This document shows, one piece after another, positions 7,695 to 59,598 of a DNA stretch of 64,000 nucleotides. The notes beneath the pieces were generated by a model. That model searched no databases, was not told the DNA's origin, and worked only from the letters and a program-made list of their open reading frames with translations. The first letter of the stretch is position 1. Each line of letters starts with the position of its first letter. The position numbers and the translations under genes are program-made. The stretch is from positions 4,092,001 through 4,156,000 of the forward strand of contig NZ_CP134706.1 of the NCBI RefSeq assembly GCF_038246755.1, read 5' to 3'. The DNA comes from Micromonospora sp. FIMYZ51 (lineage in GTDB: Bacteria; Actinomycetota; Actinomycetes; Mycobacteriales; Micromonosporaceae).

Positions 7695-8282
7695 TCAGGT
7701 CAGCTGCGCCACCGCCTCCACGATCAGCCAGATGCCGCTGGCGGCGAAGAGCGCGGCGGCGCCGTACTTGATGGTCCGTTCCGGCAGCTTCCGGCCGAGC
7801 AGCCGGCCGACGACGATGGCGAGCGCGTCGGCGGCGACCATGCCGATCGTCGAGCCGACCCAGGTGCCGAACCAGCCGTACTGGGTGGCCAGCGTGATCG
7901 TCGCCAGCATCGTCTTGTCGCCGAGCTCGGCCAGGAAGAACGCGACACCAACGGCCAGCACCGCCGACTTGCCACCCTTGGCGGCTTTGTTCTTCTCCTC
8001 CTCGGTAAGCGTGTCGCCGCGCAGGGTCCACAGGCCGAAGCCGATGAAGGCCAGCCCTGCCAGCAGCGAGATCCAGCCGGTGGGCAGGGTGGCGCCGAGG
8101 CCGTGACCGATTGCCACCGAGGCCAGGTGCACCACGGCGGTGGCCACGGTGATGCCGATCAGGATCGGCACGGTGCGATATCTGGTGGCAAAGGCCAGGG
8201 CCATGAGCTGGGACTTGTCTCCCAACTCGGCAACGAAGATCACACCGAAGCTGACCGCCAGTGCGACGAGGAACCCCTCCAT
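7695..8282 (-). CDS. TMEM165/GDT1 family cation transporter
   Basis: 195 residues, about six membrane helices in two repeats. Each repeat carries the family motif E-x-G-D-(K/R)-(T/S): AELGDKSQ near residue 18 and AELGDKTM near residue 118. Members (UPF0016; MneA, Gdt1, TMEM165) exchange Mn2+ or Ca2+ for protons. A basic loop (EEEKNKAAKGGKS) separates the repeats. The gene lies directly behind a yybP-ykoY manganese riboswitch, so Mn2+ efflux is the most likely role. GGAAGGA precedes the ATG. No cotranscribed partner is evident. Confidence 0.92.
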   Translation of the reverse strand: MEGFLVALAVSFGVIFVAELGDKSQLMALAFATRYRTVPILIGITVATAVVHLASVAIGHGLGATLPTGWISLLAGLAFIGFGLWTLRGDTLTEEEKNKAAKGGKSAVLAVGVAFFLAELGDKTMLATITLATQYGWFGTWVGSTIGMVAADALAIVVGRLLGRKLPERTIKYGAAALFAASGIWLIVEAVAQLT

Positions 8283-8325
8283 GACGTCCTTCCGGATCGG
8301 GCCGGGAGGAGGAACGGGGGTGCCC

Positions 8326-8353
8326 TCGACCCGGCTGCTACAGCCTGGGTCGA
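8326..8353 (-). terminator. Hairpin in the expression platform of the manganese riboswitch
   Basis: On the minus strand TCGACCC and GGGTCGA pair, with an inner GGCTG/CAGCC stem. The 5' arm overlaps the 3' strand of riboswitch helix P1 (8347-8356), so the two helices compete for the same bases. It lacks a U-tract, so it could stop transcription as a U-less actinobacterial terminator or alter access to the start 44 bp downstream. Confidence 0.5.
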
Positions 8354-8450
8354 AGGTCTCGCCCGCCTCGATGATTCGAGGCCGCGTGGCCGGATGCGGA
8401 ACGCATCAGTATGTCGACCACGGCGTTGCGGGCTACTCCCCTTCGCTGCC
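8347..8450 (-). promoter_or_regulatory. yybP-ykoY manganese riboswitch
   Basis: The minus strand reads GCGAAGGGGAGTAGCCC, then TCGACATACTGA, then GCGAGACCTTCGACCC. GGGGAGUAGC and the ACAUACUGA loop are the two conserved metal-binding loops of this riboswitch class, and CGAAGG/CCUUCG closes helix P1. The class senses Mn2+ and usually turns on exporters when Mn2+ is high. It ends about 65 bp before a TMEM165/GDT1 transporter, a known target class. The identification rests on conserved primary sequence plus the pairing ends. Confidence 0.9.
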
Positions 8451-8476
8451 CGCCAGCCTAGCCGACCACCGGACGG

Positions 8477-9442
8477 TCACTCCGCTCGGGCCAGGGTGAC
8501 CCCGAACCGGCCCTGCGGGTCGGTCCAGAACCGTTCGGCGCGCAACCCCGCCCCGGCCAGTTCGGCGGCGATCCCCTCGGGGCGGAACTTCGCCGACACC
8601 TCGGTGCGCAGCTCTTCCCCGGCGGCGAAGTCGACCTCCAGATCGAGCACCCGCACCCGCATCGGCCGCTCGGCGCGCAGCCGCATCTCGATCCACTCCC
8701 GGTCCGGGTCCCAGCGCGCGACGTGCGCGAACGCCGCCGGATCGAAATCGGCACCGAGTTCCCGGTTGAGCACCCGCAGCACGTTGCGGTTGAACTCGGC
8801 GGTCACCCCCGCCGCGTCGTCGTACGCCGGCACCAGCACCGCCGGATCCTTGACCAGGTCGGTGCCGACCAGCAGCCAGTCCCCCGCTTCCAGCGCGGCC
8901 CGCATCCGGGCGAGGAACCCGGCCCGCTCGTCGGGCAGCAGGTTGCCGATGGTGCCGCCGAGGAATGCCACCAGCCGCCGACCGCCGGTGGGCAGCCGGT
9001 CGAGGTCGCGGGTGAAGTCCCCGACGATGCCCCGCACCCGCAGCCCCGGATAGTCGACGGCGAGGGCTTCGGTGGAGGCGCGCAGGGCACTTATCGACAC
9101 GTCCAGCGGCACGAACGTGCCCAGGCCACCGCGCCGGGTGAGCGCGTCCAGCAGCAGCCGGGTCTTCTCCGAGGAGCCGGACCCGAGCTCGATGAGCGTC
9201 TTCGCGCCGGTCAGTTCGGCGATCTCGGCCGAGCGTTCGGCCAGCACCGCGCGCTCGGCGCGGGTCGGGTAGTACTCCGGCAGCCGGGTGATCTCGTCGA
9301 ACAACTCGCTGCCCCGCGCGTCGTAGAACCACTTCGGGGGCAGCCACTTCGGCTCGGCGGTGAGCCCGACCCGTACGTCGTGCCGCAGGCTGCGCGCGAT
9401 GTCCTGGTCGTCCAGGTGGATCTCGAGCGGCTCCGTGCCCAT
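8477..9442 (-). CDS. egtD: Histidine N-alpha-methyltransferase EgtD
   Basis: 321 residues. The EgtD/DUF2260 fold is recognisable: substrate region [24 protein letters not shown] (32-residue-scale N-terminal block), then the SAM-binding [13 protein letters not shown]. EgtD trimethylates histidine to hercynine, the first step of ergothioneine synthesis, using three SAM. It is the last gene of egtABCD, 43 bp behind egtC, with its own strong GGAGAAGGGAG ribosome site. Length fits the family. Confidence 0.95.
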
Positions 9443-9485
9443 CTGTTCTCCCTTCTCCGTTGGATGTCGGCCCGAACGGCCGGGC

Positions 9486-10232
9486 TCACCGCGTCGCGAT
9501 CGGCTGCTGATGCAGCTGCGTCGCGGTGGCCTGCACGAGCTGACCGTCCGGCACCGGTCGCCAGCCCGGCTCGTCGTCGTGCGGTTCCGAGGCCAGCAGC
9601 ACCGAGGTCGGCGTGGTACGCACCGACAACGCGTGCCCGGCCGTACTGGCGATCACCGTGCGACCGTCGGTGAGCAGCAGGTTCAGCCGGGACCCGGGGG
9701 CGGCCACCGCGACCGAGGTGACCGTCTCGGTGACCGCGCGGGCCGGCGGCACGCCCGCCCGCAGCCGGGCGCGCACCAGCGCCCAGAGCAGCGCCGAGTC
9801 GGTGGCCGCGTCGAGGGTGAGCAGGTCACGCACGGGTAGCTTCGCGGCGAGTGGGACCACCGAGTCCGGCCAGCCGCAGACCACGCCGTTGTGGCTGAAC
9901 AGCCACCGCCCCTCGGCGAAGGGCGCGGCGGCCGGCTCCACGACCGCCATGCCGACGGTGGCCGAGCGCACCGCGGCCAGCACCGCGCCGCTCGCGGTGA
10001 CCGCAGCGAGTTCGGCGATCGTCGGATCGCTCCAGATCGGCTGGGCGCGCCGGTACCGCACCGGCGGGCCGTCGCCGGGGTACCAGCCGACGCCGAACCC
10101 GTCGGCGTTCACGGTCCCGCCGCCGCGCATGTCCCGCGGTGCCCAGGACTGGCGCAGCAGCGAGTGCGGCGGATCGAAGAGCAGCTCGCGCAGGCTCAAC
10201 GGTGGCCCGAGATAGGCCAGGTGGCGGCACAT
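9486..10232 (-). CDS. egtC: Gamma-glutamyl-hercynylcysteine sulfoxide hydrolase EgtC
   Basis: 248 residues, class II glutamine-amidotransferase fold. Translation begins MCRHLAYLG, so Cys2 becomes the N-terminal nucleophile after Met removal; [10 protein letters not shown] and the SHNGVV loop are also typical. It removes the gamma-glutamyl group from the sulfoxide intermediate made by EgtB. I set the start at the Met directly before the Cys; the frame continues upstream into egtB without family similarity. It begins 22 bp after the egtB stop. Confidence 0.93.
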
Positions 10233-10254
10233 CAGGCGACCGGCTCGACGACCG

Positions 10255-11592
10255 TCACGAGTGCGTCTCGTCGGGGTGGGCGGCACGGGCGCAGCGGAAG
10301 CCGCTGAAGATCTGCCGCCGAATGGGATAGTCCCAGTTGCGGAACGTGCCCCGGCAGGCGGACCGGTCGGTGCCGAACGAGCCGCCGCGCAGCACCTGGT
10401 AGTCGGCACCGAAGAAGACCTCGGAGTATTCCCGGTACGGGAAGGCGGCGAAGCCCGGATAGCCCCGGAACGGGGTGCTGGTCCACTCCCAGACGTCGCC
10501 GATGAGCTGGTGCACGCCCAGCGGCGAGACCCCGGCCGGGTAGCCGCCGACCGGTGCCGGCCAAAGGTGCCGCTGCCCCAGGTTGGCGTGCGCCGAGGTG
10601 GGCTCCTCGTCGCCCCAGGGGTAGCGGCGGGAGCGGCCGGTGGCCGGGTCCCAGCGGGCCGCCTTCTCCCACTCCGCCTCGGTCGGCAGCCGCTTGCCCG
10701 CCCAGGCGGCGTACGCCTGGGCCTCGTAGAAGCAGACGTGCACCACCGGTTCGTCGTCGCGAACCCGGTCCCACCGGCCGAAGCGCCGGTACGCCCAGCC
10801 GTCGCCGTCGCGCTGCCAGTGCATCGGGGCGCTCAGCTCGGCCGCCTGGCGGTGGCGCCAGCCGGGCGCGCTCCACCAGCGCGGATCGTCGTACCCGCCG
10901 TCGGCGATGAACTCGCGGTACGCCCCGTTGGTCACCGGCGCGGCGTCGATCACGTACGCGGGCAGCTCCACCCGGTGAGCGGGCCGTTCGTTGTCCAGCG
11001 CCCACGGGTCGGTGTCGGTGCCCATCACGAACGGGCCGGCGGGCACCAGCACCTCGCCGGTCACCGGCGTGACCGGCTCGGGTGGCGGCGGCGCGTGCAG
11101 CACGGCCGGGCCGGCGCGCAGCTGGTGGGTGGCGAGCATGGTCTCGTCGTGCTGCTGCTCGTGCTGCACGATCATGCCGAAGGCGAACCCGTCGGCGACC
11201 AGCCGGCGGCTGTCGAAGGAAACCCGGTCCAGCAGGTCGTGCACCTTCTCCCGCACGGTCGCCAGGTACGCCCGCGCCTCGGCCGGCGGCAACAGCGGCA
11301 GCGACGGGCGGTCCCGCCGGGGCTGTTTGAAGGCGTCGTAGAGGTCATCGATGTCGCACCGGACCGGTTCCCGGCCGCCGACGTCCCGGACCAGCCAGAG
11401 TTCCTCCTGGTTGCCCACATGGGCCAGGTCCCACACCAACGGCGACATCAGCGGCGAGTGCTGACGCACCAGGTCGGCATCGTCGACCGCCTCGGTCAGC
11501 AGGGCGGTACGGGCCCGGGTACGCGCCAGTTCCGCCGCGATCCGGCCGCGCAGCTGCTCCGCGTCCTCCCGGCCGGTCAAGGTGTCGGTCAC
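10255..11592 (-). CDS. egtB: Ergothioneine sulfoxide synthase EgtB
   Basis: 445 residues. The N-terminal DinB-like four-helix domain carries the iron ligands His58 (LAHVGNQ) and His144/His148 (QHEQQHDETM). The C-terminal formylglycine-generating-enzyme/sulfatase-modifying domain runs from about residue 180 (PAGPFVMGTD) to the end, with GDVWEWT and RGGSFGTD motifs. EgtB is a non-haem Fe(II) enzyme that uses O2 to join gamma-glutamylcysteine to hercynine. The GTG start has a GAGGAGG site, and its GTGA overlaps the egtA stop, so it is translationally coupled. The use of gamma-glutamylcysteine is consistent with egtA and egtC being present. Confidence 0.95.
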   Translation of the reverse strand: MTDTLTGREDAEQLRGRIAAELARTRARTALLTEAVDDADLVRQHSPLMSPLVWDLAHVGNQEELWLVRDVGGREPVRCDIDDLYDAFKQPRRDRPSLPLLPPAEARAYLATVREKVHDLLDRVSFDSRRLVADGFAFGMIVQHEQQHDETMLATHQLRAGPAVLHAPPPPEPVTPVTGEVLVPAGPFVMGTDTDPWALDNERPAHRVELPAYVIDAAPVTNGAYREFIADGGYDDPRWWSAPGWRHRQAAELSAPMHWQRDGDGWAYRRFGRWDRVRDDEPVVHVCFYEAQAYAAWAGKRLPTEAEWEKAARWDPATGRSRRYPWGDEEPTSAHANLGQRHLWPAPVGGYPAGVSPLGVHQLIGDVWEWTSTPFRGYPGFAAFPYREYSEVFFGADYQVLRGGSFGTDRSACRGTFRNWDYPIRRQIFSGFRCARAAHPDETHS

Positions 11593-50023: not shown

Positions 50024-50995
50024 TCAGCGCTCCGGCGGGGCCGCCAGGCCCTCCCGGTCGGCCAGATCCAGCAGCGGTTCGAGGGAGAAGCGGCGCTCGT
50101 CGAGGCCGGCGTGCGGGTCGCCGTGCTCGGCGAAACGGGCGGGCATGGTGGTGACGTCGAAGTCCTCCGGCCGGGCGTCGTCCAGCTCGGTCCAGTGCAG
50201 CGGCGCGGAGACCAGCGCCGCCGGACTGGGTCGGATCGAGTACGCCGAGGTCATCGTGTGGTCGCGGGCCATCTGGTTGTAGTCGACGAAGACGGGACGA
50301 TCGCGCTGCTCGCGCCACCAGGTGGTGGTGACCAGGTCGGGGCGGCGGCGCTGCATCTCGCGCCCGAGCGCCAGCACGGCCCGCCGGCAGTCACCGAAAC
50401 TCCACCGTGGCTCGATCGACACGTACACGTGCAGGCCGCGCCCGCCGGTGGTCTTGGGATAGCCGACCAGGCCGAGTTCGTCGAGAAAGGCGCGTACCTC
50501 GTGGGCCACCGGCACCACCTGGTCGAACCCCACTGCGGGCAGCGGGTCCAGGTCGATGCGTAGCTGGTCCGGCCGCTCGACGTCGGCCCTGGTCACCGGC
50601 CACGGATGAAAGCGCAGCGTGCCCAGGTTGACCGCCCAGATCACCACCGCCAGCTCACCCGGCGCGACCTCGTCGGCCGTCCGGCCGCTCGGGAAGGTGA
50701 TGTGCGCCGTGCCGACCCAGTCGGGTGCGCCCGCCGGCACCCGCTTCTGGTAGAACGCATCACCCCGGTTGTCCTGCCGGGTGGCGATGGTCGCCCCTTC
50801 GAACACGCCCCGGGGCCACCGCTCCAGCATGGTCGGCCGGTCCCGCAGCGCACGCAGGATGCCGTCACCGACGGCGAGGAAGTAGCGCACCACGTCAAGC
50901 TTGGTCAGCCCACGTTCCGGGAAATACGGCTTGTCCGGGCTGGAGACGCGCACCGTCCGCCGCCCCACCCGGATCTCCTCGGCCGTGCCTGCCAC
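50024..50995 (-). CDS. LigD-type DNA primase-polymerase (standalone Pol domain)
   Basis: 323 residues, matching only the polymerase domain of DNA ligase D. Catalytic pair in LRIDLDP (Asp-x-Asp), TTGGRGLHVYV (active-site His) and WWREQRDRPVFVDYNQ are present. Such enzymes add ribonucleotides or deoxynucleotides to ends in Ku-dependent end joining. Ligase and nuclease domains are absent and no Ku gene is nearby. The GTG start at 50995 lacks a clear ribosome site. It ends 15 bp after the Lrp gene, with opposite orientation. Confidence 0.9.
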   Translation of the reverse strand: MAGTAEEIRVGRRTVRVSSPDKPYFPERGLTKLDVVRYFLAVGDGILRALRDRPTMLERWPRGVFEGATIATRQDNRGDAFYQKRVPAGAPDWVGTAHITFPSGRTADEVAPGELAVVIWAVNLGTLRFHPWPVTRADVERPDQLRIDLDPLPAVGFDQVVPVAHEVRAFLDELGLVGYPKTTGGRGLHVYVSIEPRWSFGDCRRAVLALGREMQRRRPDLVTTTWWREQRDRPVFVDYNQMARDHTMTSAYSIRPSPAALVSAPLHWTELDDARPEDFDVTTMPARFAEHGDPHAGLDERRFSLEPLLDLADREGLAAPPER

Positions 50996-54512: not shown

Positions 54513-54521
54513 AGGACCACC

Positions 54522-54581
54522 TTAAGGAAGGGCCCCCTATTAACGCCTCGTGCATAGGAAGGGCCCCTTATTAACACGTGC
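54522..54581. repeat. Dispersed GGGCCCC/TTAAC repeat, copy 4 (double)
   Basis: TTAAGGAAGGGCCCCCTATTAA then GCATAGGAAGGGCCCCTTATTAA: two tandem half-units. It lies between the FMN-oxidase start and the YjbR gene and therefore separates two divergent transcripts. Text is shortened; the shared blocks are GGAAGGGCCCC and TATTAACG. Confidence 0.85.
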
Positions 54582-55006: not shown

Positions 55007-55033
55007 CCCGAGCCTCGCCGAGACCGCCCTGCA

Positions 55034-55152
55034 CCGCCGGGCGCGTTACGGAGGAGGGCACGGCGACCGAGGACCGCCGGGCGCGTTACGGAGGAGGGCA
55101 CGGCGACCGAGGACCGCCGGGCGCGTTACGGAGGAGGGCACGGCGACCGAGG
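55034..55152. repeat. 40-bp tandem repeat, three copies
   Basis: The unit starts GCGCGTTACGGAGGAGGGCA and ends CCGCCGG. Copies are at 55041-55080, 55081-55120 and a 32-base third, with a 7-base end piece before the first. Period 40 is not a multiple of 3 and no frame runs through, so it is noncoding. It marks the left edge of the NACHT/UMP-kinase insert. Confidence 0.9.
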
Positions 55153-55215
55153 TCTACGCCGGGTCGCCGTCGCACCGGGTCCGGGGTGGACGAGGGCAGC
55201 ACCGCCACCGTGGGG

Positions 55216-55977
55216 CTACTCTCGCATCGGCTGGTCGTTTCCCAGTACCTGTCCGTCGGCGGTCGAGAAACAGATCAGGGTGCCAGCGTCGGTCCTGCCG
55301 AGCAGCGCCTCCGACACGGCGTTCTCGGCCGACACGTCAAAAACGAAGATCGGCATGCTGTTGTCGCGGCACAAGGCAACCGCCGTCGCGTCCATCACCT
55401 GCAAGTTCTGCGACATCACCGAGTCATAGTCGATTGTTTCGAACTTGACCGCATCCGCGAATCGCCGCGGGTCCTTGCTGTAGACGCCGTCGGTGCCGAA
55501 CTTGGCCAGCAGGAGAACCTGGGCTCCGATCTCGGTTGCGCGCAGCGCGGCAGCGGTGTCGGTCGTGAAGAACGGGCTGCCAAGACCGCCGGCAAAGATG
55601 ATCACGCGGTTCTTTGCCAGATGACGCATGGCCCGGCCGTAGATGTACGATTCGGCGACCATAGGCGCCTCCATGCCGCTCATCACCCGGGAGTCAAGGC
55701 CGGCCCTGGTCATTGCGTCCTGGAGCGCGAGAGCATTTATGATCGTGGCGAGCATGCCCATGTGGTCGGCCTTCGTGCGGTTCACCCCAGGCAGCATCTT
55801 GCCGCGGATGATGTTTCCGCCGCCAACCATGACTGCCACTTTCAGGTCAGGCTCCGCCTTGCGGGCTATCGCGATCTGGGCAGTGAAGTAATCCAGCCTC
55901 TCGGCACTTACTATGCTCTCGCCCTCGATGTCCGCAACCGCTTCCCCCGACATCTTGAGCAGGACGATCCGGTCCAC
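55216..55977 (-). CDS. Divergent UMP-kinase (PyrH) paralogue, NACHT-associated
   Basis: 253 residues, amino-acid-kinase fold. Conserved PyrH elements: LLKMSGEAV, VMVGGGNIIRG, ADHMGMLATIINALALQDA (UMP site) and PFFTTDTAAALRATEIGA. Changes are GLGSP where housekeeping PyrH has TGNP, and LLAKFGTDGVYSKDP in place of KATKVDGVY. The basic-active-site residues appear intact, so nucleotide phosphorylation is likely. It is probably not the cell's main pyrH, which normally neighbours tsf and frr. GTG start with TTAGGAG five bases upstream; it begins one base after the NACHT stop. The base composition is lower in GC than surrounding genes. Confidence 0.88.
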   Translation of the reverse strand: MDRIVLLKMSGEAVADIEGESIVSAERLDYFTAQIAIARKAEPDLKVAVMVGGGNIIRGKMLPGVNRTKADHMGMLATIINALALQDAMTRAGLDSRVMSGMEAPMVAESYIYGRAMRHLAKNRVIIFAGGLGSPFFTTDTAAALRATEIGAQVLLLAKFGTDGVYSKDPRRFADAVKFETIDYDSVMSQNLQVMDATAVALCRDNSMPIFVFDVSAENAVSEALLGRTDAGTLICFSTADGQVLGNDQPMRE

Positions 55978-55978
55978 T

Positions 55979-58705
55979 CTAGCTCCTAAGTAGCTTGCGA
56001 ACATCCTCGGTGTACATTTGTTGCACCACGGCGCCTCCGGTCAACGACAGAGCCTTGTCTCCCAGCACGGGACTGAACCGCCGCCAAATGAATGGAAACT
56101 TCCTGACATACACTGCGACAATTGGGCCGTCGCTGCTCCTCGGATCTCCCCACCGCCACCTGCGCAGCCGGGCCCGGTCACCAGACACCATTCGGACGCG
56201 CCGTTCGGCGGCCATCGTGAAATCGGATCCCTCCGGCTGAAGGTTGAGCACCTTACGCGACGGAAGGGACAGGATTCCTGCGATGGCCAGCAGCCGGAAG
56301 CCCAGGAGGAAGAGCACCGCCAGCGGCAACAGCGCAAGCGCCAGCTGCCAGGGATGCAGGCTCGAAAACCAGAGTGGCACGTCCGCCAGCACGACGATGC
56401 TCAGCAACAGCATCCCCACCCGGGGGTCACCGAACATGATCTCGTGACGCAGTCGCCGGACCGGGCGAATGTAGGACAAGACCGTGAGGTGCGGGAACTC
56501 GGCTTGGCTCGCTGCTGCACAACGCCGGACGTACGGCAGCGCGATTGCCAGGGTCCCAGCTAGTCTGGTGCCGCGAATCGGCCATGCGTCCACCCAACGT
56601 TCCGCCGAGTTCGTCAGTGTCGCTCGGCCAAGGAACGACCTGCGGGGCGGCGGCGCCAAACTGTTGGAGAAGAGGGACGAACGTAGTGCCGCCTCGGCGA
56701 CGATGGCGGCGAGGCGCGGGCTTCGGACCACCTCTTCATGGCGTACGCGCTCACCAACCGTCGGCTCGTAAAGGGCCACGATCGCGTCCTCCGGCGAGGT
56801 TGCAAGCAGGATGGAGTGCACGTTGTCGTGGTTGGCGATCTTCATGGCCAGGTCCACATCGAGCTGGGCCACCTGTAGCGCGGTCAGGCCGGTGCTCTCA
56901 AAGAACTCGCCCAGCTCACCGACAACGGTGACCTCTGCCTTTCGCCCTAATGCGGCACATGCCTGCTCGTAATCGACGAGGACCGCCACGAGATCCCGGA
57001 AGAGTACCGGATCCTCCTGATTCTGCTGCCACCAGTTGCAGTAGAAACGGATCCGCTCCGGAAATTGCGGCAGGAAGTACGCCTGCGCCTCAAGCATCGC
57101 CCGGGGGTAGTAGCGGCCGACGAAGGTGCTGTTACTCAGGTCGTGCAGCACGGTCTGCAAGTGAAGCGAGTTGCGGCTCGCCATCAGTCCGCAGGCCAGG
57201 TAGAAACCCTCCAGGTAGCGCAGCGGATCCGATTTCAGTGGGCCGATCAACAGCCGCTGAATCTCTTTCTTCCTGGCGATTGCGGCAAGCGAGCAGGCCA
57301 GGAAGTAGTCGAGAAACGAACGGTGCACGAAACTCCAGGTTTCGTCCCTGTCGTTTCGGACGATGATGCCCGTGTCCTTGGCCAGCTCGTATAGTGCCTG
57401 CTCAGCCGTCTGCCCGTCCTTGACCAACGCGGCGGCATGCCGGAGTATGTTCTTTTCGCTGATGGCGTTGAAGGGCTCGCGGGACCGGATGTGATGGTCG
57501 ACGACAGCGACGAAGAAGTTCGTTCGCGCCTGCCGGAACGGCCGGTTGGGAGATCGCACGCCGACCCGGTCGGACCGGGTCCGGATCATCAGATAGTCGA
57601 CGACGTCGCTGAAGAACGCCGCTCTGGTTTCCGGCTGAGATGACAAGTTGCCCGGCCCAAGATCGCGCAAGCGTTGATCGTGGTTCACGTACAGTGCCAG
57701 CGCCAACGGGTTCGCGCAGGTCTCCACAAGTGTGGAGTTCAGCCGGAGCTGGTTGAAGATGCGCCGCGCCTCGTCGGAACTCTTCTTGCCAGGCGGGTAG
57801 GGCCAGCGCAACAGGAACGAGTAGATGGCGGCCGGCGTGAACGGCTTGAGTTCCACCGGCACCAGGTTTTGGATTCCTCCACCGGTCAGGCGTGGCGCGA
57901 AGTCAAGGGCTTGCCGGCGACTCGCGATGATGAGCAGGTTGCTCCCCCGCGACGACGACAGATATTGATCCAGGTCCAGCAGGAATTGTTCGACAGCGCC
58001 GATGGTCTCTGCGGCGATTTCGTCCAGTCCGTCGAGGAGCACGACCAGCCCATTCTTCTGGCTGGTCGCGAACGTCCGCAGCATTCCACCGGAGTCGAAA
58101 AGCTCCATGGGGCTGATGGTGAGCCGCTCGAAGCATTTCTCAAGCACCGCGAAGGATGCCTCCGGCGAAGCGGCTGTGCCGCTCGCTCCGCTGAGAATCG
58201 GGCCGATGTGCTGCAAGGGCAGGTACACGGGCAGGCGGGCTCGATCCTTGTTCTCCCGCGCTTTCCAGCACAGGTCGCGAATGATTCGGGACAGCAACGC
58301 ACTCTTGCCCGTCCCCGGATCACCCAGGAGCAGGATCGTTCCGGATTTCGAAAGAAGTTGGATGGCCTCCGTCATCTGGCCCGCCCGCAGTTCGAGCGGA
58401 ATGTAGCAGCGGTCGATAGGAAGCTCGACGCGCCCGGGAACCACCAGCCGTTGGTGACGCCGGTAGAGCGACTGGAGATAGATATCCAGGCTATAGCGCA
58501 GTAGGAACTGTCGCCGCAATCCTTTCCCCACGAAGTGGGCGGCTGCTCTCCTGAGCCAGGCGGCGGCCTTCGGCCGCAGTAGGTCTATTTCCCGCGACGC
58601 TTTGCGATCGGGTCGCCTGGCGAAGGCCCACACACTTCGCACGAGCGTGGCGGCGGCCGCGACCGCGGCCGTCACCGCCGCCGCCACAACGGGCTGAGGA
58701 TCCAT
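55979..58705 (-). CDS. Membrane-anchored NACHT-family NTPase
   Basis: 908 residues. An N-terminal membrane helix (about 6-28), a basic linker, then a P-loop module: Walker A LLLGDPGTGKS (128-135 for the core) and Walker B LVVLLDGLDE (220-229), the NACHT D-G-x-D-E form. A SRR(Q)-type sensor region (IIASRRQ) follows, and FVHRSFLDYFLACSLA (about 490) is a winged-helix end. A roughly 250-residue helical C-terminal region precedes two membrane helices (about 775-825) and a short C-terminal domain. No WD, TPR, LRR or nuclease domain is visible. The ATG at 58705 has a GGAA site; frames upstream look random. NACHT proteins include bacterial antiphage sensors; sensor and effector here are unknown. Confidence 0.88.
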   Translation of the reverse strand: MDPQPVVAAAVTAAVAAAATLVRSVWAFARRPDRKASREIDLLRPKAAAWLRRAAAHFVGKGLRRQFLLRYSLDIYLQSLYRRHQRLVVPGRVELPIDRCYIPLELRAGQMTEAIQLLSKSGTILLLGDPGTGKSALLSRIIRDLCWKARENKDRARLPVYLPLQHIGPILSGASGTAASPEASFAVLEKCFERLTISPMELFDSGGMLRTFATSQKNGLVVLLDGLDEIAAETIGAVEQFLLDLDQYLSSSRGSNLLIIASRRQALDFAPRLTGGGIQNLVPVELKPFTPAAIYSFLLRWPYPPGKKSSDEARRIFNQLRLNSTLVETCANPLALALYVNHDQRLRDLGPGNLSSQPETRAAFFSDVVDYLMIRTRSDRVGVRSPNRPFRQARTNFFVAVVDHHIRSREPFNAISEKNILRHAAALVKDGQTAEQALYELAKDTGIIVRNDRDETWSFVHRSFLDYFLACSLAAIARKKEIQRLLIGPLKSDPLRYLEGFYLACGLMASRNSLHLQTVLHDLSNSTFVGRYYPRAMLEAQAYFLPQFPERIRFYCNWWQQNQEDPVLFRDLVAVLVDYEQACAALGRKAEVTVVGELGEFFESTGLTALQVAQLDVDLAMKIANHDNVHSILLATSPEDAIVALYEPTVGERVRHEEVVRSPRLAAIVAEAALRSSLFSNSLAPPPRRSFLGRATLTNSAERWVDAWPIRGTRLAGTLAIALPYVRRCAAASQAEFPHLTVLSYIRPVRRLRHEIMFGDPRVGMLLLSIVVLADVPLWFSSLHPWQLALALLPLAVLFLLGFRLLAIAGILSLPSRKVLNLQPEGSDFTMAAERRVRMVSGDRARLRRWRWGDPRSSDGPIVAVYVRKFPFIWRRFSPVLGDKALSLTGGAVVQQMYTEDVRKLLRS

Positions 58706-59028
58706 CAGTATTCCGATCTTGCGTCGGAAGGAGCCGTGTGCGTCCGGAAACTGCATCCTGCCGCCGTACCGCATTGTCGTGTCGTCGTGCTGGACACCGC
58801 GAGGTGCCATGCGCAGCCCTCGCCGCGACCGGCGGCATGCCATGAGTAGACAACGGGACACTGTGGATGGCAGTCGGGTCAACGGCTCCCGCGACTGGCC
58901 CTTTCGGTCGCCGATTCGCCGACGGGTGGCCGAATACAGCGAACGGTCAGAGTTCCGGTGTCGTCAATGGCCGTCATTGCCGACCGGCCCTGTTGCCGGC
59001 ATTGCCTAGTGGTCGCCTGGTCACGGCG
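58706..59028. other. Intergenic region upstream of the NACHT gene
   Basis: 323 bp. A TTGACC on the minus strand (about 58878) could be a -35 for the NACHT operon, but no well-spaced -10 is present. No palindrome or RNA was recognised. The composition shifts from moderate GC to high GC towards the XRE gene, placing the right edge of the insert here. Confidence 0.4.
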
Positions 59029-59598
59029 TCAATGAGGTCGCCGATGGCGACGGCTGAGGATCACCACGTAGCGGCAGGGGCGGTCGGTGACGTTGCGGTA
59101 GGAGCAGGGGGCCGGTTCGCCGAGCTCCAGGCAGTCACCGGGGTTCAGGTCGTGCTCGACGGCGCCCTCCTGGAAACGCAGGTGGCCCTGCAACACCCAG
59201 ATCTGGTGGTCGGCCAGCGCGTACGCATCGGCCGGATAGGCCACCTCCGCGCCGGGCGGAAGGTCCACCTCGACCAGTTGGACCGCGCCACCGGCGGGTG
59301 ACACCGAGCGACGCCGGTAACCGGTCTGGGGATCGACCCAGAGGTGCTGATCGGCGCTGCGGGACAGCCGAGGGGCCCGCTCCTCGGTGCGGGCGAACAA
59401 CTCGGAGAGGGTGAGGCCGAGGGCCGCGCTGAGCCGGCCGAGGAGGACGGCGGTCGGTTGCGCCGTGCCGCGTTCGACCTTGGCGATCATCGCCCGGGAG
59501 ACGCCGGAGCGCTCGGCCAGGGCATTTACCGACAGGCCCTGAGCGGTGCGGGCGGCCCGGAGGGCGGCGGCAAGATCGGTGGTCAGGCGGTCCGACAT
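59029..59598 (-). CDS. XRE-family regulator with cupin sensor domain
   Basis: 189 residues from the ATG at 59598. HTH at 8-65 (LRAARTAQGLSVNALAERSGVSRAMIAKVERGTAQPT; core SVNALAERSGVS), and a C-terminal cupin from about 105 with LPPGAEVAYPAD, HQIWVLQGHLRF and NPGDCLELGEP. The XRE-cupin class typically senses a small metabolite. Divergent from GNAT across only 38 bp with a symmetric operator, so it is the likely regulator of both. The transcript may be leaderless. Confidence 0.9.
   Translation of the reverse strand: MSDRLTTDLAAALRAARTAQGLSVNALAERSGVSRAMIAKVERGTAQPTAVLLGRLSAALGLTLSELFARTEERAPRLSRSADQHLWVDPQTGYRRRSVSPAGGAVQLVEVDLPPGAEVAYPADAYALADHQIWVLQGHLRFQEGAVEHDLNPGDCLELGEPAPCSYRNVTDRPCRYVVILSRRHRRPH

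Follow-up and report, generated by a model that had tools for sequence, protein, structure and literature searches.

In a 64,000-nucleotide stretch of the actinomycete Micromonospora sp. FIMYZ51 (contig NZ_CP134706.1, positions 4,092,001 to 4,156,000 of the forward strand; hereafter the window), we find that the genes for a NACHT-type STAND ATPase and for a paralogue of the uridine monophosphate (UMP) kinase PyrH form a pair that behaves as a unit, is rare among isolates and has apparently moved horizontally as a module. The NACHT gene (55979-58705, minus strand) has an ATG start and encodes 908 amino acids, while the kinase gene downstream of it (55216-55977, minus strand) has a GTG start and encodes 253. 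The original prediction for this locus, made from the sequence alone, placed both genes on one strand with one base between them, and indeed a single base separates the NACHT stop codon TAG (55979-55981) from the kinase GTG (55977-55975). Since the likely kinase ribosome-binding site, AGGAG (55983-55987, minus strand), also lies within the last NACHT codons, translation of the two genes is probably coupled.

Recurrence and horizontal movement of the pair

The original prediction had staked itself on the pair recurring in other genomes and on the kinase not being the only pyrH of its own genome, and both proved to be the case. Catellatospora methionotrophica carries the pair at an unrelated locus (L008), where the NACHT gene ends at position 10718 and the kinase GTG begins at 10720, leaving the same one-base gap, and where the GGAGCTAG-N-GTG arrangement before the kinase matches the AGGAG-to-GTG arrangement of the window. 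The kinases of the two loci are 68% identical and the NACHT proteins 53%. The Micromonospora genome also holds a separate, ordinary pyrH (L007, G000:C1:1589356-1590051) whose product is 46% identical to the paired kinase, ruling out the paired gene as the sole pyrH.

Profile searching of a protein database revealed a closed NACHT family, with 25 clusters including the window's at 805 bits or more and the next match at 51 bits. Our three protein-database searches scored about 8000 candidates each, and all cluster counts are at least the numbers given, as clusters may be missing. For 11 of the other 24 NACHT clusters, the longest contig is exactly as long as that of a subfamily or intermediate kinase cluster (38 clusters, P0027-P0064, described below), a shared contig not being equal to adjacency, which was directly observed for the window and Catellatospora alone. 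None of the 24 shares the exact length of its longest contig with the 79 ordinary kinase contigs (81 listed clusters minus P0108, which has no length, and P0118, whose 2146 bases found no match either), and control lengths shifted by 1-10 bases gave 0 or 1 matches out of 24. Across 13 pairs (these 11, Catellatospora and the window), the two genes have been inherited together: NACHT and kinase distances correlate with a Mantel r of 0.785, with 0 of 20000 permutations reaching this value.

Isolate genomes rarely contain the pair. Among 354 genomes of the Micromonosporaceae, the family of the window's genome, six had a NACHT match at 1e-40, with full-length members only in the window's genome and in Catellatospora, and only one of 396 genomes of the phylum had a NACHT member, namely the window's own. 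A DNA motif for the kinase was found in 1 of the 396 phylum genomes and 3 of the 354 family genomes, the third of which (G744) has no kinase match, and a scan of genome contigs with two short peptide patterns, from which the window's own genome may have been absent, gave one locus. G744 and five viral contigs with the KFGTDG DNA motif were dropped after tblastn found no kinase or NACHT match in them.

Composition and flanking comparisons both point to insertion. The two-gene segment (3.49 kb) has a guanine-plus-cytosine (GC) content of 62.9% against 71.8% for the window, and only 1 of 606 sliding windows of segment length, the segment itself included, is as low, the lowest outside it being 68.8%. 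This lower GC had been predicted, as had a composition shift in the right-hand gap (58706-59028, 65.3% GC) and a 40-bp repeat to the left of the pair, which consists of three exact tandem copies beside the kinase 3' end (55033-55152). The 34-base core of this repeat has no other site in the 7.05-Mb genome at three or fewer mismatches. Two near-identical GGAAGGGCCCC-type repeats also occur at 54520-54580, upstream of a flavin mononucleotide (FMN)-dehydrogenase gene, and are present in the congener G574 as well. An RNA element was considered and dropped, as the segment has no Rfam match at gathering scores.

In G574, YjbR and XRE-cupin flanks that match those of the window at 85-89% DNA identity enclose 538 bp in place of the 4.04 kb found here (55011-59047), which has no homology to that genome. 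G574 was the sole informative genome among the 30 others of the genus that were searched, where XRE-cupin was found in two and adjoined YjbR in one. The flanking genes in Catellatospora are unlike those of the window. In the four compared of its 10 other congeners (G479, G482, G483 and G488), the flanks are homologous on both sides, and the interval between them is about 0.7 kb in three and 2.0 kb in one. At L008, the foreign segment (approximately 7814-11477) comprises a leader and the two genes; it starts roughly 165 bases ahead of the NACHT start (as taken from P0012) and ends at most 6 bases from the kinase stop. None of the five empty loci has a tblastn match to either protein. These comparisons suggest two insertions in unrelated places that share, as far as they were read, only these two genes.

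Features of the NACHT protein and the kinase

The NACHT domain was identified by Pfam at 29.2 bits against a gathering cut-off of 26.7, and the predicted Walker motifs in their NACHT form are present: Walker A GDPGTGKS (residues 128-135; 58301-58324, minus strand), with G128, G131, G133 and K134 invariant in 23 rows, and the acidic Walker B LLDGLDE (residues 223-229; 58019-58039, minus strand), with D225, L227, D228 and E229 likewise invariant. The predicted fold matches NOD2 and NLRP3 and is of the NLR type; as in NLRs, winged-helix and helical domains accompany the NACHT domain, together with a histidine motif of the FxHxSFxxYF type. Matches shown from a viral structure library look like general hits to AAA-type proteins or ATPases or are unnamed, and Pfam shows no nuclease in the protein. 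Ten NACHT-like places occur in the window's genome at E 0.001, six of them above the Pfam cut-off.

Membrane helices at both ends had also been predicted. At the N terminus there is one Ala-rich, borderline helix (residues 4-22; 58640-58696, minus strand), which lies above the hydropathy threshold in 11 of 23 family rows. Toward the C terminus, a predicted membrane hairpin (residues 752-810; 56276-56452, minus strand) contains two stretches that pass the threshold (residues 756-774 and 790-808); two such stretches are found in 22 of 23 rows and one in the last, and models show them as helices. The hairpin is followed by a C-tail domain (residues 811-908; 55982-56275, minus strand), recognised by alignment, profile and model, that appears specific to the kinase-coupled family. 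Its residues 838-905 align over 63-68 positions in 22 of 23 rows, P0015 stopping early (19), and the mean predicted local distance difference test score (pLDDT) of the model is 84-94 from about residue 840 onward. No confident PDB match was found for the C-tail fold, a second comparison covering mainly the hairpin. The short P0022 and P0023 were excluded from alignment A1, and P0014, P0015, P0022 and P0023 from A3.

We also identified four solo NACHT proteins in the same family of bacteria (L032-L035) that share homology with residues 52-750 of the window protein and carry two C-terminal hydrophobic stretches at three loci and one at L033. The 19-kb stretches around these four genes contain no kinase match, and the window C-tail, which falls outside the profile match to this solo branch, did not align with them. 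Given this pattern, a membrane NACHT core seems to have gained the kinase as an addition. The proteins at L032, L033 and L035 have 906, 915 and 883 amino acids, and third-position GC is low in two of the three. At L034 (7784-12797, Catellatospora genome G483), the NACHT gene, a distant relative, directly follows a VWA-domain gene, upstream of which is a gene with no Pfam match that appears GTPase-like by eye; this may be a different, three-gene NACHT module.

The kinase passes the NCBIfam equivalog model pyrH_bact (TIGR02075) with 267.8 bits against a cut-off of 243.9. In a tree of 120 rows, built by a quick method and with long-branch warnings, 36 subfamily rows and two intermediates form a separate clade of 38 (SH-aLRT support 100) on a stem of 1.56 changes per column, with the 36 rows alone supported at 74. 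One metagenomic sequence on an 891-base contig, P0053, is subfamily-like in its first half and like ordinary PyrH in its second, and is perhaps an assembly chimera; it was excluded from the tree and the residue counts and retained in alignment A2 and among the 38 kinase contigs compared. Compared to 81 ordinary kinases, the subfamily is marked by Met9, Asp16, Ser24, Arg27, Phe31, Gly101, Gly114 and Thr162.

The side chains that contact ADP, UDP or UMP are known for the Thermus thermophilus and Staphylococcus aureus UMP kinases (PMC12404492, PMC12847342). Of the catalytic ones, S10, R58, D71, K159, Y166 and D169 are kept in 36 of 36 subfamily rows, K8 in all 31 rows with a letter there, and T139 in 35 of 36, the remaining row having Ser. 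The exception is the position of S. aureus N138, whose change to Ala abolishes UMP kinase activity (PMC12847342) and which is Ser134 in the window kinase. Since most subfamily rows (28 of 36) have Asn here and the genome's own PyrH has Met, Ser134 does not reliably indicate that the enzyme is dead or retargeted. Both uracil-contact positions, 132 and 134, are more variable than in ordinary kinases (Thr in 24/36 versus 81/81, and Asn in 28/36 versus 80/81). The housekeeping PyrH (L007) itself reads GAGAGMPYF, with Ala and Met at these two positions, where 81 and 80 of the 81 ordinary kinases have Thr and Asn, respectively.

The original prediction had described intact UMP-kinase motifs with changed GLGSP and KFGTDG loops; the side chains are intact, and the loops turn out to be mild, weak signs. 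GLGSP is not a rule of the subfamily (Ser in 4/36, Asn in 28/36), and GSPYF also occurs in the solved uridylate kinase 1z9d, presumably from Streptococcus pyogenes. KFGTDG does mark the subfamily (Thr162 in 36/36), but its donor-site Lys159 is kept throughout (36/36) and it resembles KNGVDG, the loop found in the housekeeping PyrH of this genome. Equivalents of the allosteric phosphate-binding residues are also kept (in S. aureus numbering, R101 and R119 in 36/36, R122 and K126 in 33/36, R128 in 35/36), as is that of the essential E113 (36/36). However, Gly114 (33/36) occupies the position of S. aureus R118, which touches the allosteric ribose (PMC12847342), and the K109 equivalent is Pro in 31/36. 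The paired kinase is thus likely to be active as a UMP kinase, its allosteric site being somewhat altered.

Possible roles of the pair

We tentatively favor, at less than even confidence, the reading that the pair is a horizontally moved, NLR-like membrane module in which the kinase would be a dedicated sensor or bait (a 'trigger enzyme') and the NACHT protein the switch and membrane effector. STAND ATPases go from an ADP-bound monomer to an oligomer, as is established for NLRs, and UMP kinase is a nucleotide-regulated hexamer. From its family and fold, the NACHT protein would be a membrane-anchored STAND ATPase resting in a closed, ADP-bound form that, when triggered, oligomerises and acts via its membrane helices. 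The probably co-translated kinase, whose side chains indicate an intact UMP kinase and which is probably the usual hexamer, might report to the NACHT protein the pyrimidine or purine nucleotide state bound to it, or interference with UMP kinase by a phage or a rival's product, and the C-tail would be its likeliest docking site. We hold more doubtfully to the specific proposal that pyrimidine metabolism is the receptor input and that a UMP-kinase hexamer docked on the C-tail, reading UMP, UTP or GTP or acting as bait, licenses membrane-directed cell death. If the favored reading is true, a central pyrimidine enzyme joins the things watched by NLR-like receptors, in a small and separable two-gene module that allows direct tests of receptor switching and of sensor chemistry, the latter in a hexameric enzyme that is well studied and has known mutants. 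Even outside defence, signalling in which a STAND ATPase has a UMP kinase as its fixed partner would be unusual.

Several observations weigh against the kinase as a defence sensor. The intact active site fits a plain enzyme or an effector equally well, and the genome's own PyrH departs at allosteric positions too (Ala at 105, Leu at 114), so the change at 114 is not peculiar to the subfamily and the altered positions do not prove that a new sensor has arisen. The two genes may not always be paired, since 12 of the 24 NACHT clusters have no matched kinase (counting Catellatospora as matched) and five kinases on 9-57 kb contigs (P0043, P0044, P0050, P0052 and P0064) have no matched NACHT cluster; short contigs, the use of cluster representatives and the scope of about 8000 candidates may explain some of these. 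Neither protein matched a known defence family: the best PADLOC hit to the NACHT protein (E 0.0047) covered residues 114-146, which is the P-loop only, the kinase had no PADLOC match, and the NCBIfam model EruA reached 18.1 bits against a cut-off of 1000. Ten neighbours (seven in the window, three at L008) scanned for defence models included no recognised defence gene, with eight giving no match. The other two, the XRE-cupin gene (helix-turn-helix models, best E 1.1e-11) and a UvrD-like gene (local matches to GajB models, best E 1.3e-9), we read as general helix-turn-helix and UvrD-helicase similarity. The predicted sensor-kinase membrane module is upheld as something that recurs and, by prediction, is linked to the membrane, while its antiphage role and its recurrence near defence genes found no such backing at these two loci. 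Elsewhere in the window, a gene at 50024-50995 encodes a LigD-type primase-polymerase (323 amino acids, PF21686, 281 bits).

Carriage by phages or plasmids was considered and dropped, as no member of either family was found among plasmid and phage records at E 1e-5. The NACHT protein matched seven plasmid records, none above 25% identity, and found nothing among phages. The kinase matched 55 plasmid and 16 phage records, all below 60% identity and at most 48.5% among the 20 and 10 matches listed, as ordinary pyrH does. When viral contigs were scanned for the NACHT protein, 17 loci appeared, with identities of 22-26%.

Behind the sensor or bait reading we place, in descending order, the kinase as effector, regulation outside defence and a spare, inhibitor-resistant target. 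As an effector, which we consider unlikely, the kinase would respond to NACHT activation by phosphorylating UMP or a related, perhaps phage or modified, nucleotide, reshaping UDP, UTP and CTP pools or making a toxic nucleotide. The compared catalytic side chains are intact, and the variable positions 132 and 134 leave room for a changed acceptor, but the housekeeping enzyme also departs there (Ala, Met) and, with the host's own pyrH present, extra activity should do little. A forward UMP kinase, moreover, raises UDP and would not starve a phage; the depletion of UTP and CTP pools originally proposed is not supported, as the catalytic side chains are those of an enzyme that would feed these pools rather than drain them. 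Less likely still is regulation of metabolism or of the envelope: a membrane STAND ATPase would use the kinase to sense pyrimidine nucleotides and control local UDP and UTP, for example for UDP-sugar and cell-wall synthesis. Such a role would suit a membrane hairpin joined to an enzyme, the lack of recognised defence genes among the ten scanned neighbours and the ordinary metabolic and transport genes seen by eye around three of the four solo relatives, but the sporadic, inserted, low-GC distribution (2/354 in the family, 1/396 in the phylum) is more what one would expect of conflict modules than of envelope housekeeping.

Actinomycetes commonly carry spare target genes for self-resistance, and the kinase, differing at several positions across its subfamily, could be an inhibitor-resistant copy that protects against a product hitting UMP kinase, with the NACHT protein as passenger or regulator. 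We regard this as improbable, since the NACHT gene accompanies the kinase at both insertion sites and in the distance correlation, and no biosynthetic cluster stood out in a listing, without full annotation, of the window's open reading frames. That an ordinary pyrH duplicate merely happens to adjoin a NACHT gene deserves almost no credence: one-base spacing alone could be coincidence, but we reject chance pairing on the recurrence, the contig matches, the correlated distances and the empty sites, and the separate kinase clade contradicts it too.

Comparison with known systems

The pairing of a NACHT protein with a UMP kinase was not found described in the titles and abstract openings of the open-licence papers listed, in line with the original prediction, although it may have been described elsewhere. 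UMP kinase, uridylate and PyrH are not mentioned in the main texts of PMC7159879, PMC8195603 and PMC13092281.

Relative to PyrH itself (TIGR02075), the window kinase is alike in score, in catalytic side chains and in most allosteric phosphate-binding residues, but it is a second copy in a long-stemmed clade of its own, carries marks such as Met9, Asp16, Ser24, Gly101, Gly114 and Thr162, and adjoins a NACHT gene. The solo membrane NACHT proteins have residues 52-750 and the hydrophobic stretches in common with the window protein and differ in the unaligned C-tail and in having no kinase match nearby, with L034 differing further in following the VWA gene and the gene without a Pfam match.

Three precedents lead us to favor the kinase as sensor or bait. 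In Lactococcus infected by phage sk1, UMP-synthesis genes are repressed 2- to 36-fold (PMC10986495). In Escherichia coli, PyrH takes part in regulating carAB through a function that can be separated from catalysis and for which a protein contact was proposed rather than validated (PMC6245113). That trigger enzyme is likewise a UMP kinase with a regulatory role apart from catalysis, but there the housekeeping copy works at a promoter, perhaps with PepA (PMC6245113), whereas in the window a second copy lies beside a receptor-like ATPase. Finally, antiphage bNACHT proteins such as bNACHT25 are likewise NACHT STAND ATPases, and bNACHT25 senses phage through the host protein DnaJ (PMC12169576). It bears an N-terminal PD-(D/E)XK nuclease (PMC12169576), whereas the window NACHT protein has no nuclease by Pfam, carries a membrane hairpin and is encoded next to a UMP kinase.

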